DNA from: Rhynchopus sp. YZ270_cl-10
Taxonomy: Eukaryota; Euglenozoa; Diplonemea; Diplonemida; Diplonemidae
DNA length: 64,000 nt
Assembly (NCBI GenBank): GCA_964035575.1
Contig: OZ037905.1
Span: forward strand, 521,001 to 585,000
Direction of reading: 5' to 3'
Part shown: piece by piece, positions 42,441-53,717 of the stretch
Layout of the letters: the number at the start of each line of letters is the position of its first letter
Position numbering within the stretch: the first letter of the stretch is position 1
Program-made: the position numbers and the translations under genes
The notes under the pieces: model-generated
The model's input: only the letters and a program-made list of their open reading frames with translations
Databases searched by the model: none
Told to the model about the DNA's origin: nothing

Positions 42441-45400
42441 TTAGAACCGTTGTATCTCGTTCCAGGTGAAGGCACTTTGCTGGCCGACACGGACCTTTAT
42501 GAGGCTGCCGTCCACTGTGTCAACGATGCCTTCCTTCCATTCTTCTCTGGGGCTGTCTCGCACCTTGACACGGTCGCCTGTTGTGTAGACAAACTTCTTT
42601 ACCTGCGACCACGTGTACCCGGTCTTTTGCCCGATAAGCTTTACGGTGGGTTTCGAGCCAAACGCGGTGTCGACGACCCCTTCCTTCCAGTCCTCTTTGT
42701 TGCTGTCGCGCACCAGGACACGGTCTCCACCTTTGAACTTCTCGGGTATCGGCGAGTCGTCTGTGTCCACACGGTAGTACGACCACGTGAAGGAGTGGTC
42801 GCTGCCTTCACAGCGCACCAACGGTTTGGACCCGGCGGTGGCCACGACGCCTCGCTTCCAAGGGTCCTTTTCGTTGTCACGCACCTGCACCTTGTCTCCC
42901 TGCTTGTAGGTCCCAGAGGACACCGACGACGACGATGACGATGACGCAGCAGGCAGCGCGCCAAAGGAGGACTCCTTCCCCTTCCCGGGCAGTGCAGGGA
43001 TCGAATCCTCGGTGTCGTGCTCAACAAACGACCACATGAACGTACCGCGTGACGTGGCAACCATCGGCTTGGGACCAGCAGACTTGACAACACCTTTGTT
43101 CCACTCATCCGCAGCACGGTCACGGACACGCACCTTGTCTCCAACGGAGTACTGTCCCTGGGTCTTCCCGCCCGCAGCCTTTTCGACAAACGCCCAAGAG
43201 AACGCCATTGCCCCGCCGCTGATGCGCACCTTGGGCTGGCCATTGCTGTTCACAGACTCAACAACACCCTGCTGCCATTTGTCCTTCTCGCCGTCACGAA
43301 CCTGCACCTTGTCGCCCTTCGCGTACTTGACCTCAGTAGAGGACACGTCCTTCTCCACCAAGTTCCAGGTGAAGGGGCGTTTCTGTCCGTCCCCGATAAC
43401 GACGGGCTTGCCGGTGGCGTGTTGGATGGACTCCACGACACCCTTCTTCCATTCGTCACGCTCGTGGTCGCGGAAGCGGACTCTGTCCCCTATGGCGAAC
43501 TGTTGCGTGGGTGATGGGTGATGGGTGATTGGTGATGGGTGGTGCGTGGTGGTGCTGTGTGGGTGAACATGGTCATACCGATTTGCTCGCAGCATCCGCC
43601 CGCTTCATCATATTCCACCCAAACGCACGTGCCGCACCCTCAACCTTAGCAGTGATTTTCGGGTCCGTCGCTTCAATAGTCGCACGCTGCCACTTCTCCG
43701 TCTCCGTGTCTCTTACCATCACACTCTCGCCGACTTTGAACTGTGGAAAGGGTGGGTGATTCAGTTATGACCCAAAAATCATGGTGCAAAATGGGGGGAA
43801 ACAACGTTTCCATGGTGGTGACATACCGCAGCCTCGCCCTTCTTCACAATGGCCCATTTGAGGGAACGTTCGCCGCCGTCAATCTTCACAAGGGGATCGG
43901 GGCCGGACGCGCTGGTGACGGTACCTGTTTTGTGAGTGGTTATTTTTTGAAACATTGGCCGTATTGGTGGTCTCCACTGCTGTGGAGGGTATCCTCGCTG
44001 TGCTGTTCGATGCTGAGGCATACCTGACTTCCACTGCTCACGCTCAGAGTCGCGGACCTTGACACGGTCGCCGATCTTCCATTTGCTGCCTTCGGACGAC
44101 TTTCCTGTCTTCCCCGTGGAGGTGTCGTTGTCGGATGCTATCTTCTCGTAGAGGGCCCATGTGAAAGGCTTGTCCTGGCCATCGATCACGACAAGGGGGC
44201 GGCTGCCGCCTTCCTGCTGCACGATGCCGTTGCGCCAGGTCTCTCTGTCCGAGTCGCGCACGCGGACACGGTCGCCTGTGCGCAAGGTCGTGTCCTTGTC
44301 AGCAGACGCCTTCTTCTTAGGCGACTCCTTGCTCGGCTCAATGAACATCCATGTGAACGACCGCTGCTGACCGTCAATCTTGACATGCACCTTCGAGTCC
44401 TTGATTTTGTCGACAGTGCCCTGACGCCAGGATTCTCTGTCCGTGTCGCGGACGCGCACACGGTCGCCCACCTGGTACTGCGGTGCGGCGGATGAAGACG
44501 AAGACGATGTTGCGGTCTGCGTCTCTTCTGCCCTCTCGACGTGTGCCCACGTGAAGGCACGCTCCTGCCCGTCGAGACGGACCTTCGTGCGCTTGTCGAC
44601 CACAGCCTCAACGACACCAAGCTTCCACTGCTCTCCAGAGGAGTCGCGCACACGCACCCTGGTGCCCACGGAGAAGATCTGCGAGGCCTCGCCAATGGTG
44701 CGTGTCTTGTCGGAGGACGACGATGAGGAAGAGGAGGACGAGGACGAGGACGAGGCTGCCGACTTCCCGTGGCTGTCGTCGGCCTCCACAAAGTTCCACG
44801 TGTACACCTTGTTGTCGACACGCACAGAGACCTTTCCGGTGGAGGAAACCAGGGCCACGACACCGTGCTGCCACGCCTCGTAGTCTGCATCGCGGACACG
44901 AACACGGTCGCCTACGGTGAACTGTGGAGGGTGGAAGTGAGATGAAGCGTTTTGAACGAAATGAACCGTGCGGTTGGTGTTGTGTGGTAGCATACCTTGG
45001 ACGCGCTGTCCTTCTCGTCGTACTTCTCCACCAACGACCATGAGAAGTCGCGTAGCTGCCCGTCGACACAGACCATTGGCTTCTTGTCGCCGTTGCTCAG
45101 GGTTTTGAGGGAGTTCACAGTTCCGACGCGCCACTCTTCGCGTGTAGTGTCGCGCACACGGACACGGTCTCCGATGGAGAACTGAAGTGTTGGATGTGGT
45201 GTGGGGTGTGTGTGATGTGCATACCTCGTCACGCGGCGACGCCTTCTTGCCAGCCTTCTTGCCATCGCCCTCTTCATCATCGATGCGCATCATGTTCCAC
45301 GTGTAGTCCTTCGTGTGGCCCGCTATCGTCACCGTCACACGCGAACCCGATACCGTCGTGACAGTGCCCTTGCGCCACGACTCCTTCTCAGAGTCACGTA

Positions 45401-47600
45401 CCTGCACAGCGTCGCCCACAGAGTACTCGGGCGGAGGCGAGTCGCGCTCAACATACTTCCATGTGAAGGAGCGTGTCTGTCCGTTGATGCGAACGTCCGG
45501 GCGTGGGGAGGCCTTCGTCACGACACCCTTGCGCCAGTCCTCGCGTTCCGTGTCGCGTACACGCACTGTGTCACCAACGCTGAAGGAAACGGAGCGCTTC
45601 TCCTTTTCCTTCTCCTTCTCCTTTTCCTTCTCGTTCTCCATGTCCCTCCGCTTCTCGTCCTCCTCGTCTTTGCGCTTGCGCTCCTGGTCGCGTCGGTCGC
45701 GCTCCTTCTCACGTTCACGTTCGCGCTCTCGGTCCTCCTCGCGTTCCTTCTCGCGCTCACGTTCGCGTTCCCGTTCACGCTCCTGATCCTCCTGCTTGCG
45801 TCGGTGCTCTTCGTCAAGAGACTGGCGGCGTTTTCTGTCCTCGCAGTCACGGTTCTTTTCTCTTTGGCGATCCTCCTCACGTTCGCGCTCGCGCGCACGT
45901 TCGCGTTCGTTTTCACGTTCCCTGTCGAGCTCGCGCTCCTTTTCGCGCTCGCGTTCACGTTCCCTGTCACGTTCATCCTCGCGGTCACGTTCACGTTCAC
46001 GCTCACGATCACGGTCACGATCACGGTCACGCTCGCGTTCACTCTCCTTCTCCTTGTTGGCGTACTTGTCCTCCTCGGCCATCTTCTTCTTGAGGGTGTC
46101 GTCCTCGTCGATGGAATCCTTCCTGTCACGATCAGACTTTGCGCTGTCGCCTTTAGGGGACACGTCGCCACCCTTGGCGCGCCGCTCGTCACGCTCGTCC
46201 TTCTCGCGCCGGTACTCCTTATCCTCCTTCTCGTCCTTGTCGCCCCTCTTCTCTTCCTTGCCCTTATGTTTCTCGTCCTCTTTGCGCTCTTTGTCCCTTT
46301 TGCGCCGCCGTCTGGATGACTCCGACGACTCCGAGGAGTAGTGTTTCTCATCCTTGTCCCTATCCCTATCCCTGTCCCTGTCACGGTCTCTGCTCTTCTC
46401 TTTGTAGATGCGCCGCTCGTGCCCGCTGTCGGAGTGGTGTGCGTTGCGTTCACGGCTGCGCTCTCTGCGTGCGGGCGCCGCTGGTCGTCCCCCTGCGGGT
46501 GGAATACCGAGCGCACTGTGCCCATGGTGTGAGTAGCAGAACTGGTCGACGGCGGAGAGCACTTTGTTTGTGTTGTGGAGGAGGTTCTTGAGGATGCCGA
46601 CCTCCACCTCGAAGAAGTTCTGCTCCTCTGCGGAGTAGTGCGACGTGCGGCCGAGCTGCTTGTCGCTTTCGACGTACTCCTCCACCAGCGTCATGATCGT
46701 TGCCAGCTGCGCAAGCACCTCGTACCTCAGGTACTTCCGCACGGAGCCGCCACTCACCGCATCCGACTCATAGTCCGACACATGCACCTTGCCTCTGCGC
46801 CCCCTCTCCCTCTCCCTCTCTCTCTCTCTCTCCCTCTTCCGATGCCGCACCGTCGACGATGCATGAGGCCGCATGCTATCCTCTGTGATCGTGCTGGTGT
46901 TGTCGGAGTCCTGCCTCACCCGCCTCTTCTTCCTCCTCCGTGGCACCGCCCCTTCAAACACACCAGAAGAAGAAACCTGCGCAAGGCTCAACGGCTGGTT
47001 CGTCACCTGCACAAACCTCCCTGCTTGGTCGCGAATATAGGTCGGTGGCGAAGCCGCATTTTGAATACGCTGCGGCGACGCCGCGTTCAGAGGTGCCTGC
47101 AGCTGCTGTGGGATGGTGGAAGGGCCGAGGCATGTCAGACGCACATCGATGGTCATAGTTCCAATTTTGTTTCCAAGCACATCGGCGAGGGGGAAGGCAC
47201 CACGACCTATACTGCATTTCAGAGGATCCCTGCTGTCACCAATGACTAAGGCGTGACTGCCTAGGACAGTCCTGTCCCCTGAATTGACTTCGTCCACTAA
47301 GAGAACATGAAGTGTCAATGGCAGGCACGGTGCCAGCTCATCGGGGCGAACTTGAAAGAGACAGCTCTTCCCGCTTTCAAAGCAGATGCTTGTAAATGCT
47401 CCATCGGTTGCTTCCGTATCCCGTTTGTGACCCTCACGGTTTGTCAGATCTGGACGCAAAAAGAGTGTGGGGAAGTCCCACAAGCGAAACGCCACGCAAG
47501 GATTCGTAGAGGTAGGTACATTGCTTAGGTTCTTCAACCCATAGCAGTAAACCTCAAGGCTGTAGAGTTGTGATGGGGCGGATGGGGGTGGTGGGTTCAT
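42441..47600 (-). CDS. C2-like protein with 15 SH3/Tudor-like modules, six exons
   Basis: Exons 47600-45225, 45181-44996, 44921-44024, 43924-43827, 43740-43579 and 43499-42441 join in phase to 1,593 codons. Residues ~5-150 look like a C2 fold (LYSLEVYCYGLKNL ... TMTIDVRLTCLG). A helical segment (~285-360) and a long Arg/Glu/Asp-rich region (RERERER runs) follow. From about residue 690 come 15 modules of ~50 residues with consensus F-VGDRVRVRD-E-W--G-V ... DG--F-W--VE, an SH3/Tudor-like barrel pattern. Introns 1, 2, 4 and 5 are phase 0 and fall exactly before the module's first Phe (TTC). I chose the ATG at 47600; the in-frame GTG four codons earlier is unlikely. Function unknown; cytoskeletal or ciliary scaffold is only a guess. 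Confidence 0.85.
43500..43578 (-). other. Modular-gene intron 5
   Basis: 79 nt, donor GTATGA, acceptor GCAACAG, phase 0, before module 10. Its 3' half is a CACCCAT microsatellite. The exon between introns 4 and 5 is one module of 54 codons. Confidence 0.85.
43741..43826 (-). other. Modular-gene intron 4
   Basis: 86 nt, donor GTATGT, acceptor TTCCACAG, phase 0, before module 9. Confidence 0.85.
43925..44023 (-). other. Modular-gene intron 3
   Basis: 99 nt, donor GTATGC, acceptor AAAACAG, phase 1. The only intron that splits a module (module 8, between EQWKS and TVTSASG). Confidence 0.85.
44922..44995 (-). other. Modular-gene intron 2
   Basis: 74 nt, donor GTATGC, acceptor CTCCACAG, phase 0, immediately before module 4. 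The exon between introns 1 and 2 is exactly one module of 62 codons. Confidence 0.85.
45182..45224 (-). other. Modular-gene intron 1
   Basis: 43 nt, donor GTATGC, acceptor CACTTCAG, phase 0, immediately before module 3. Confidence 0.85.
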
Positions 47601-48420
47601 CACAACATCCACAGAAAAAAAGAGGGTCGGGGAGAGAGGGGTAAGACAAAAACGGAAGATGTGTAGCCTATAGTGTTCAGTGGAGTATAGTGGGAAGAGC
47701 TTGGTGTGAAATAACGGAGAAGAGGGGAAATAGTTTTTTTTTTTTTTTGTAGATTTTGAGGAAGCGCCAAAAAAAAAAAAAGTTGTCCTGTCGTTCCCTC
47801 ACCCTCCCCTTCTTGTAGTTTGATGCGTTGACTGACACTTCCAGGAGTATGGTTGGGTGAGGTGAACGACGTGACACTTTCCGCTCACCAAGAAGTGTGA
47901 GTAAAAAAAAAACCCCCCCCAAAGAGGAGAAGCTAGCCATTTTTGGGGTTCCTTGGATGAGGAGTTTCTCTCAGGGGGGGGAAAAAAAAAGAAGGAAAAA
48001 GAAACAGTAACGAGAAGGGTGTAGCAAATACTCCCTATATTTTGAACCAGCGTTTCTTAGTCTAACAAAAGAAAAAAAAGAAAGAGAAAAAAAAAAGCGT
48101 TTCCGTGTATGTTGCAGTCCACCTGTACATAAACCCTTACCCATCTCTTCCATTCCCCTCATATACCTCCGTGAATATCAAGCTAAAACTTTCAAAAAAA
48201 TTGAAAGCAAAACTCGGGTGTCTGTGCAAATCTTATCTTCTCTCTAGAAAAGAGGCCCAATAAAAAAAAATGCACAAAAATTTCATTTAAAGAAAGTATC
48301 AAAACACCCGCTGCCTTCACCAACCACGGGGGAGACATAGAGGGGGAAGGTGTGGGATGGATATGGGGTTTTGTATGTGGCATTAGTTTTTTTCTTTTTT
48401 ATTATTTTTTCTTCTTCGCT
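47601..48420. other. Spacer; 3' region of the SelW-like gene
   Basis: About 820 bp rich in A and T runs. The minus strand here would be the 3' UTR of the gene at 48421-48741. I could not pick out a SECIS element by eye: ATGA cores occur (for example near 48290) without a convincing helix and opposing GA. Confidence 0.4.
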
Positions 48421-48741
48421 TTATGCAGCTTTGGCAACGGCGGCGGAGATCTCACTCATGGTCCGGGTGCGTTCGGCGCCACGTTTTTTGAAGAGACTCT
48501 TTTGGGAGCCCTTCCACACAGTCTTCCCAGCAGGGTCAATCACGGAGACCATGAGAGGATGCCCGCCCGAGCCCTTCGCCACAACAGTGGCGTTTGGGAC
48601 GGCGCTCTTGACGGCCTGGATCGCGGAGTCGCGTTCCTGGCTGCCTCCGTCTCAATTAAACATGAACGTCACCACGTAGCTCCCTGTCACGCTTGTGTTG
48701 CTCGCCACCGGCGCCTCAGACTGACTACATTTGTTCCCCAT
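48421..48741 (-). CDS. Candidate SelW/Rdx-like selenoprotein with in-frame TGA
   Basis: A 107-codon frame from ATG 48741 to TAA 48421, open except for one TGA at codon 30 (48652-48654). The N-terminus MGNKCSQSE fits N-myristoylation with a neighbouring Cys for palmitoylation. The rest matches the Rdx thioredoxin-like pattern: strand YVVTFMFN, the TGA, helix RDSAIQAVKSAVPNATVV, a GSGGHPLMVSV turn-strand, then GKTVWKGSQK and a C-terminal helix. The TGA sits where SelW has the Sec of its CxxU motif; the first Cys is Met27. Codon pattern and composition are protein-like on both sides. TGA is also a normal stop in this window (all UBL-WD40 genes), so recoding or a nonsense mutation are the alternatives. 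A CAG site precedes the ATG by about 55 nt. Confidence 0.6.
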
Positions 48742-49170
48742 GTCTGAACGAAGCTCCGCTATGTAGTCCACCTTGTGAGTGTTTTGTGTAAATTCTGTAA
48801 TGTAAGTGGACAGAGGATGTGCGGAAAGTGGAAGAGGAGGGGGTGTGCTACCGTTTGCGAAAAAAAAAAAAAATTATTACGCGTCCACTCGACGTTTGGA
48901 TAAAGAAAACTAGAGATGAAAGGGGGTTTGGGGGGAAGAGTTTAATTCTTGAACGCATCCCCACACTCAGTCACACGAAGGGGATGAAAGGGGGGTTTTT
49001 TTTTTGAAAAACACCAAACGCTGTTCACAATAATGAACGAAAAATTGACAATTTTCCTGATGAAGATGTAATGTATGTGTGAGAGATGGGGAGCACGGGA
49101 GGGAAAAAACGACTCGTGGATACTGAAAAATTTCACTAGAAATGCACGCATGTCTTATAAAAAAAAAATG
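48742..49170. other. Spacer left of the Mutator-like element
   Basis: About 430 bp. It contains the leader of the SelW-like gene (CTTACATTACAG) and poly(A)/poly(T) runs, then the left copy of the 9-bp target duplication. Confidence 0.5.
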
Positions 49171-51722: not shown

Positions 51723-52826
51723 TCAAGACAGGTGTGAGATGTCAACAATCTCAACACCATCATCCCTGCCGTACATCAGCACACCACCACAGCTGCTGAT
51801 CGCAAGGCCGTAAGCACATCCGCTGTAAGCATTGTTGCCCTCAAATTCACGACGTAGAAGTGGCTTCCCTGTTGAGATGGACCACACACACAAGATCCCA
51901 GACAAGTAGGCAGCAACAACGTCATTGGACGCAGTAACATCAATCCACCTATCTTGTGAGTTGTCTTCAAATACGCATTCACCTGTTTCGATGTTCCAGA
52001 CACGCACATAGTTGATTGTACAAGCTGCAATGAAACACTGGTTTGGTGTCAGTGCCACATCACGAACATTAGAAGTGCATGTCAGAACAAGCACCACCAT
52101 CCCTGTCGTGTAGTCCCAGATGGTGATCTGTTGGCTGGAAGATACAAACGTCGCGACCTTGTCGCCTGTCACAACCATAACGTTCTCGCAACCCACAATG
52201 TGGCCCCATTCATGCACAACAACGCCTGTTGCAATATCCCACACCTGCAAACCCTTCTTCTCGCAGCACGACAACAGCTTTGTTCCACAGGGTGACCATG
52301 CCGTGGTCAACTTCTCATCGCCTGCATCCCCAAAGGAGTGCTTCAATGCACCTGTCTTCACGTCATGAACTTCAGCACACTGTGTGTCAGAGTTGACACA
52401 TGAAATCCACTCACTGCAAGGTGAGAAGGATGGGTAGCAGCAACGGTCTGCAGGGAACCAGCACAGACGCTCATGTGTTTCCGTGTCGAAGATGGACAGA
52501 ACATCCTCGCGATCTATCACAGCAAGGTACCTGTCACACGGGGAGAGTGTGAGCGAGAAACTGTAATCCAAACCTCGTATCACCCCAGGAGTGATGCTGG
52601 CACCAGTGCAGTACAGCTCAACGGCACATCCCTCATCCATCTCCGTGTCGCAGATGCGCAAGTCGTCGTTGCCGATGTCGCCACCGCCTCTCATCCGCAC
52701 ACCAACATGCCGAGCACGTGGCACGCCAAGCTCCGCAACAAGCTTCCCCTTCACCTGTGCAAGGGTGGCGCTCCTGTCCACTTCTATCACACAGCTTGCA
52801 GACTCGAAGTGTCCTGTGATGTCCAT
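51723..52826 (-). CDS. UBL-WD40 family copy 8
   Basis: 367 residues, intact, sister of copy 6. It shares the CCEKKGLQVWDIATGVVVHE and DNSQDRWIDVTASND segments. A 12-nt in-frame insertion in the last blade gives NAYSGCAYGLA where other copies have one SYGLA. First variable segment VIRGLDYSFS. UBL has one silent-looking change plus TGASITPG for TGANITPG. The ATG at 52826 follows the usual leader. Confidence 0.85.
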   Translation of the reverse strand: MDITGHFESASCVIEVDRSATLAQVKGKLVAELGVPRARHVGVRMRGGGDIGNDDLRICDTEMDEGCAVELYCTGASITPGVIRGLDYSFSLTLSPCDRYLAVIDREDVLSIFDTETHERLCWFPADRCCYPSFSPCSEWISCVNSDTQCAEVHDVKTGALKHSFGDAGDEKLTTAWSPCGTKLLSCCEKKGLQVWDIATGVVVHEWGHIVGCENVMVVTGDKVATFVSSSQQITIWDYTTGMVVLVLTCTSNVRDVALTPNQCFIAACTINYVRVWNIETGECVFEDNSQDRWIDVTASNDVVAAYLSGILCVWSISTGKPLLRREFEGNNAYSGCAYGLAISSCGGVLMYGRDDGVEIVDISHLS

Positions 52827-53717
52827 GTTCAGGGGGTGTAACTTTGTTCTGTGGGGACAGGTGTGTGGGGAAGGCAGGAAGAAGAGGGGTGGACACCTTT
52901 TGTGTATACAAGATTGCATGGTTATCTTTGTTTTTCTCTTTTTTCCTGCATTTCTTATTCTCTTCTTGGGTTGTTTTTGGTTGTTGTTAGATACGCTCAA
53001 TCGCCTATCGAGTTCTGTGAATAGCACGGAACTCATTTTCATGTGTATCCATGGAAAACAGTATCATATGTGATACCGGGGGCAAAAGCTATTTGTGTCT
53101 TTTGTTGTCGTTCGTTTGTTGCATTGAAACATCTACACCAGTTTCCACAGTGACCTCGCTAGTTTTTCCTTGTTTGTTTGTCATGTTGACTGTAGATTCA
53201 TCCTGTACACTCTCTCCATTCAATTGCCCCCCCCCGCCCCCTTTTTTAATGCACGCTGTTCAGAAGTCTGTTTTTTCAATAATGAATGTTTTACCAATGA
53301 GGTGTGTGGACTGGTGCAGAGCACAGACATGGGATGGGTGTGGCTGTCTCTAGGGGTTGGGGTGCTGGGGGGTACGGGGGTCACGGGGGTAACTGGTGGG
53401 TTACTCCAGCTACTTCATCGCAACAGAAACTTTCTCTGTACACTACATGCCACTAAAAAAAAATTGAAAAAAAATGTGTCGTTGAGAAAATCAAACAACG
53501 GAGGTGCGTGAAAAAACGAGTGTTTCTCTGCGTGTGATATCGTGTCGGTGAGAATAAAACATTATGAAAAAAGATCGTTGCATTCCCACTATCGTTTCCT
53601 CTGCGCTCTCACTACGTTTCCACTCCATTCCGTTTTCTCTCACTTCGCAAAAACAAGAGAGATAACGCCTCGTACAGTAAAAAGAGGTCCTCCCACCTTC
53701 CCGTTACGGAAATGGGT
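52827..53717. other. Long spacer containing the MITE empty site
   Basis: About 890 bp. The left part (to ~53115) is the spacer block shared with 38221-38960, here without the MITE. The right part is unrelated low-complexity sequence (C run at 53228-53245). No gene seen. Confidence 0.6.

Follow-up and report, generated by a model that had tools for sequence, protein, structure and literature searches.

A 106-codon frame on the minus strand

On the minus strand of a 64,000-nucleotide stretch of DNA from Rhynchopus sp. YZ270_cl-10 (contig OZ037905.1, positions 521,001 to 585,000; hereafter the window), we analysed a 106-codon frame, 48741..48421, that starts with ATG, ends with TAA and contains one internal stop, a TGA at codon 30. 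This TGA had been proposed to encode selenocysteine (Sec) at the redox position of an unannotated SelW/Rdx-like protein. Translation of the strand confirmed the frame and its single interruption (MGNKCSQSEAPVASNTSVTGSYVVTFMFN*DGGSQERDSAIQAVKSAVPNATVVAKGSGGHPLMVSVIDPAGKTVWKGSQKSLFKKRGAERTRTMSEISAAVAKAA*, asterisks marking stop codons), and the list of open reading frames (ORFs) of at least 80 amino acids lacks it, as the original prediction had said of ORF callers. On its 5' side the frame remains open for another 132 nt, a stretch that contains no ATG, and the start context is good.

Table 1. Features at the candidate locus, in window coordinates
Feature	Position	Strand	Basis
Candidate selenoprotein coding sequence, 106 codons, TGA at codon 30	48421..48741	(-)	translation, codon usage
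Proposed Sec codon (in-frame TGA at codon 30), followed by G	48652..48654	(-)	translation
MGNKCS: Gly2 and Ser6 (N-myristoylation consensus), Cys5 (possible palmitoylation)	48724..48741	(-)	translation; general consensus
Met27, where CxxU has its first Cys	48661..48663	(-)	translation
Predicted strand 1, residues 23-29, immediately before the TGA	48655..48675	(-)	structure prediction
Predicted helix 1 (residues 34-47), following the redox loop	48601..48642	(-)	structure prediction
AG at the end of a run rich in pyrimidines, 53 nt upstream of the start codon; a likely acceptor for trans-splicing	48795..48796	(-)	acceptor use inferred
Stretch between the TAA and the next same-strand frame, expected place of a Sec insertion element; none recognised	47613..48420	(-)	Rfam and own scorers

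The frame opens with Met-Gly and has a small residue at position 6, as in N-myristoylated proteins, and MGNKCS agrees with what we take to be the consensus for N-myristoylation and palmitoylation. The proposed acylation signal is thus present as a sequence, while the modification itself is presumed. The translation also shows Met where the first Cys of the redox motif was expected; since this Met27 lies three residues before the TGA, the motif reads MFNU, i.e. MxxU and not CxxU.

Is the frame coding on both sides of the TGA? We judged this from codon usage and not from expression, with a training set of nine ORFs or exons (6620 codons) and 5000 base shuffles. The whole frame scored +12.8, the best of the six frames. 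The same rank was held by the two parts taken separately: the 29 codons ahead of the TGA scored +3.8 nats, a value reached by 18 of 5000 shuffles, and the 76 codons behind it +6.1, reached by 0 of 5000. The effect is modest and alike on both sides, and by this measure the UGA lies inside a coding frame. The ORF on the opposite strand, 48352..48747, is unlikely to be the true gene, given the codon score of -16.4 of its fully open frame and a control structure prediction of that frame alone that returned no fold (predicted template modelling score, pTM, 0.26).

Selenocysteine use in the host genome

We searched the host assembly (152 Mb, 126 contigs) for tRNA-Sec, SepSecS, SPS2 and eEFSec. The tRNA-Sec, EFSec and SPS2 for which the original prediction had suggested looking are all present, together with SepSecS (E 2e-109). 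For tRNA-Sec we obtained 53 matches, 44 of them above the family cut-off and 43 with an identical score of 73.9 bits, to our knowledge an unusual number for this tRNA; ARAGORN identified both loci submitted to it as tRNA-Sec with anticodon TCA. The eEFSec gene carries PF21208 and PF21131, and SPS2 contains one in-frame TGA (TGLKG*GCK). A TGA at the known Sec site was likewise found in three of five GPx matches (NVAS-x-*-G), in SelT (YCVG*GYRK) and in three of five Sep15/SelM matches (C-x-G-*). These eight genes, each with one in-frame TGA, are called accepted here; the criterion is that their TGA coincides with the Sec site of an established selenoprotein family, and expression plays no part in it. 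As far as a genome can show, the cell uses selenocysteine. TGA also serves as an ordinary stop: of the 22 large window ORFs picked, a set with many paralogues, 16 end in it. The base after these 16 stops is A (10), T (4) or G (2), with half of the stops coming from near-identical paralogues; after the accepted Sec codons it is G (five) or C (three), and after the candidate TGA it is G.

The tRNA-Sec copies lie on contigs C5, C17, C36, C42 and others, several of them in tandem about 447 bases apart, and the eight that we compared (L004-L011) are identical across the gene. The SelM/Sep15-like genes (L057, L058, L060) have a C-x-G-U motif and an extra Cys-containing C-terminal part after the thioredoxin domain (CIAWRA...C...GFCEC in L057). 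A PDI (L045), the one among 71 thioredoxin matches with a TGA, was rejected as a Sec protein; its TGA is inside the intron donor GTATGA.

For the selenocysteine insertion sequence (SECIS) of the accepted genes, Rfam SECIS families at E up to 10 gave no match in five loci or in two single 3' regions, and RF00031 gave 0 matches genome-wide among the 133 of 1764 candidates scored. Our own scorers, one run of which covered five accepted genes, and lists of stable hairpins yielded no convincing canonical element downstream of any of the eight; the zeros of our first scripts mean little, since these were too strict to detect much. A refined scorer gave -20.8 for one known SECIS, its sole positive control. 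Over the 1.15 kb or so that follow the stop, -13.6 was the best value among the eight accepted genes, and in four of them there was either no candidate at all or only candidates no better than -8. When each stretch was shuffled 60 times, the best scores ranged from -14.1 to -22.4, so that a shuffle can match the positive-control score. Longer scans, which covered 3.4-4.1 kb in five of the genes and 1.1-1.2 kb in the remaining three, returned one SelT candidate at -24.4, 2.66 kb past the presumed stop, which we took as chance; it is inside what appears by eye to be another coding frame. When all 5' triplets were combined with all 3' pairs in the template scorer, TGA with GA fell below the shuffles (z -1.3). 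The top combination, TCT with GA (z 3.3, a match in 8/8 genes), was set aside because about a thousand combinations had been tried. In the refined scorer, with AA required and over 900 bases, the top triplet/pair combinations matched one to five of the eight genes. Either these mRNAs carry a divergent element, or the element lies outside the scanned range, or the scans are too weak; this lineage may use a Sec insertion signal that departs from the canonical one.

Two repeats were seen in these regions. About 0.6-0.9 kb after their stops, L015 (GPxC) and L018 (SPS2) have a repeat in common, over 200 bases long (TTTTGAAAATATTCTGTTGATGGTCCACGTTGG...), which looks dispersed, and a short hairpin-like repeat, approximately CTAAGCxCAGAGxGxCTTTAG, recurs by eye in the introns of L001 and the 3' regions of L014 and L060.

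Predicted fold and comparison with known proteins

Single-sequence structure prediction gave a thioredoxin-like fold with the element order strand-helix-strand-strand-strand-helix, in which the TGA directly follows strand 1. SelW-type structures, mouse SelW included, were among the best fold-search matches, and the top Foldseek rows were NDUFA2/mitoribosomal thioredoxin-like domains (6yj4_S, E 8.5e-4, 21% identity). In VIA-align, SelW-type chains were intermixed with thioredoxins within 1 Z unit, and fold search alone therefore cannot tell Rdx from thioredoxin. The proposed SelW/Rdx-like character may hold for the predicted fold, which resembles SelW structures, and does not show in the sequence (see below); the proposed redox position of the TGA agrees with its place after predicted strand 1.

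The candidate resembles SELENOW (Rdx, PF10262) in domain length, in the position of the TGA between predicted strand 1 and helix 1 and perhaps in element order as predicted, and differs from it in the missing sequence support, in MxxU for CxxU and in the extra N-terminal acylation signal; the output of the fold searches does not show whether residue 30 pairs with the Sec of SelW. SelT of the host genome (C101), also of the Rdx family and, by analogy, with its TGA after the first strand, differs in its CVGU motif, its several exons (by eye) and its recognition by PF10262. The host SelM/Sep15-like genes are likewise small thioredoxin-fold genes with one TGA, but they have C-x-G-U, a PF08806 match, a start that looks like a signal peptide by eye and the Cys-containing C-terminal part. 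Compared with NDUFA2 and the mitoribosomal domains, the best Foldseek rows, the N-terminus of the candidate looks acylated by eye and not mitochondrial; we know of no Sec in that family.

Kinetoplastids are euglenozoan Sec users too, and the excerpt of PMC12153298 names SelK, SelT and SelTryp as their selenoproteins, and only these three. SelW proteins with CxxU and with UxxU are mentioned in the excerpt of PMC7539508, and MxxU is not.

Readings of the TGA

We consider a real, orphan, N-acylated, SelW-like selenoprotein to be the best reading of this locus and hold it with moderate confidence. Sec insertion at codon 30 would follow the example of the other selenoprotein genes and the machinery of the same genome. 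The original prediction had left the choice between a lipid-anchored selenoprotein and a freshly dead gene; Sec machinery, the eight TGA genes and codon bias favour a selenoprotein, and the dead gene becomes the main rival.

Several observations weigh against the selenoprotein reading. With Met27 ahead of the TGA, the candidate lacks the CxxU or CxxC of SelW/Rdx proteins. The suggested profile search gave no Pfam Rdx (PF10262) row at E 10, and an hhalign comparison with 16 SelW sequences, most of them from vertebrates, scored 13.8 over 12 columns, a chance level reached by 6 of 100 shuffles; SelW membership therefore fails by sequence. The protein database yielded seven candidates, all of them short of E 0.001; the segment downstream of the TGA had no homologue in the collections searched, and tblastn confirmed none of 16 pattern matches in viral contigs, none of 56 in prokaryote genomes and found no homologue in plasmids. 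Stop-free runs of 76 codons arise in 9.7% of shuffles of the same composition. The antisense frame of the ORF 48352..48747 is open throughout, and a second one on that strand has no stop across the post-TGA stretch, where its codon score is +3.2. Finally, no Rfam SECIS family matched the query region at E up to 10, and the refined scorer gave no candidate within about 1.15 kb after its stop.

The missing SECIS says little on the query, as these scans fail to turn up a convincing element after 8/8 accepted genes too; for this reason the refutation that the original prediction had attached to a missing SECIS does not apply. A query hairpin with TTGA, AAA and AGA was also rejected: its score, -13.8, is no better than those of shuffles (median of 40, -13.1). 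The collections searched, which contained no eukaryote DNA apart from the host genome, gave no orthologue that has a Cys or a Sec codon in place of codon 30; relatives with the TGA would be cut by gene callers. Within its own genome the candidate matches only itself, plus one match at E 2.6, and no second copy or allele without the TGA was present.

How else could the TGA be explained? The main rival is a recently dead, single-copy Cys-type thioredoxin-fold gene, in which a point change turned the redox Cys codon (TGC or TGT) into TGA. One such change would yield exactly the observed picture, and neither a homologue nor a SECIS backs the Sec reading. We nevertheless find this unlikely: the TGA is the sole lesion in 106 codons, without any frameshift, the codon bias is kept on both sides, a random first lesion would be expected to strike codon 30 in only about 1 of 100 cases, and other thioredoxin-fold genes of this genome use TGA in the same role. 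If the TGA were instead a true stop, the locus would encode a 29-residue peptide or no gene, and the downstream frame would be a product of chance in GC-rich sequence. The frequency of open frames at this composition and the two open antisense frames speak for this explanation, but it appears improbable in view of the codon usage, best before and after the TGA, of the compact fold predicted for this frame and none for the fully open antisense ORF, and of the good start context and acceptor-like AG ahead of the frame.

A short intron could also remove the TGA, leaving a shorter protein without a residue there. Because some diplonemids have very short introns (the excerpt of PMC12621601 gives medians of 37, 41 and 42 nt for half of six species and of 74, 91 and 107 nt for the other half, and reports many non-GT-AG introns for two), we listed frame-preserving pairs of at least 25 nt across the TGA, restricted to GT/GC donors and AG, and such pairs are present from 27 nt upward. 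However, five introns of the host genome, bounded by eye, are 175-391 nt long, run from GT to AG with 39-42% GC and in four of five cases start with GTATG, a donor that none of the listed candidates has. Moreover, three 60-base windows around the TGA have 57-70% GC, and every candidate removes part or all of predicted strand 1, which makes this explanation quite improbable. Least probable seems a readthrough without selenium, in which the TGA would be decoded as, for example, Trp or Cys. It would account for a TGA within an otherwise open frame and for the unrecognised SECIS, but there is no sign of it in the genes read here, the eight accepted genes have their TGA at known Sec sites, and TGA is in ordinary use as a stop in the window.

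Within the favoured selenoprotein reading, we tentatively suggest, as a possibility and not as an expectation, an orphan diplonemid family of doubly acylated, membrane-held, one-selenol thioredoxin-fold proteins, decoded via a non-canonical-looking insertion signal. For the favoured reading as a whole, we infer the Sec insertion, the trans-splicing at this locus, the acylation, the membrane location and the redox chemistry. The mRNA would come from a same-strand gene cluster, probably trans-spliced at the AG ahead of the frame. Indeed, the euglenozoan spliced-leader core occurs 739 times in the genome with at most one mismatch (450 forward, 289 reverse), and the reversed control pattern 0 times; one spliced leader on the reverse strand, ACCAACGATTTCTAAAGCTACAGTTTCTGTACTTCATTG, is presumably diplonemid-like. 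Host tRNA-Sec and eEFSec would decode the UGA as selenocysteine. In a flexible N-terminus of about 20 residues, Gly2 would be N-myristoylated and Cys5 possibly palmitoylated, and this acylation would hold the product on a membrane. The compact thioredoxin-like domain that follows would present Sec at its tip, between strand 1 and helix 1. Since the first Cys of CxxU is missing, the protein would rely on a single selenol, to which a small thiol or a partner protein would be joined in a mixed selenenylsulfide, as in monothiol proteins of the thioredoxin fold.

If true, this would be a selenoprotein invisible to homology-based annotation, being short, without relatives and with an internal stop, and it would open the selenoproteome of a probable diplonemid. 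We know of no membrane anchor of this kind in SelW-type proteins, and the literature searched contains no title on one. Among the literature on diplonemids with selenoprotein or selenocysteine in the full text, no title or abstract opening treats diplonemid selenoproteins, and the main text of an article on euglenozoan features (PMC7052976) lacks the whole words seleno, SECIS and Sec. The reading also raises a testable question, namely where the Sec insertion signal resides in these mRNAs.

The frame sits between two same-strand frames, 43779-47612 and 51723-53042 (WD40-type). The former is a long minus-strand frame with a MAP10_N match and several SH3/KOW-like barrel matches. Several WD40/THOC3-like paralogues with a common start, MDITGHFESASCVIEVDR, and a common end, EIVDISHLS, lie on the minus strand between 16995 and 59071 of the window. 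Elsewhere in the genome, G000:C48:642810-700907 contains at least 27 near-evenly spaced matches of equal score to the EF-Tu family, probably EF1A, which form a large tandem array.
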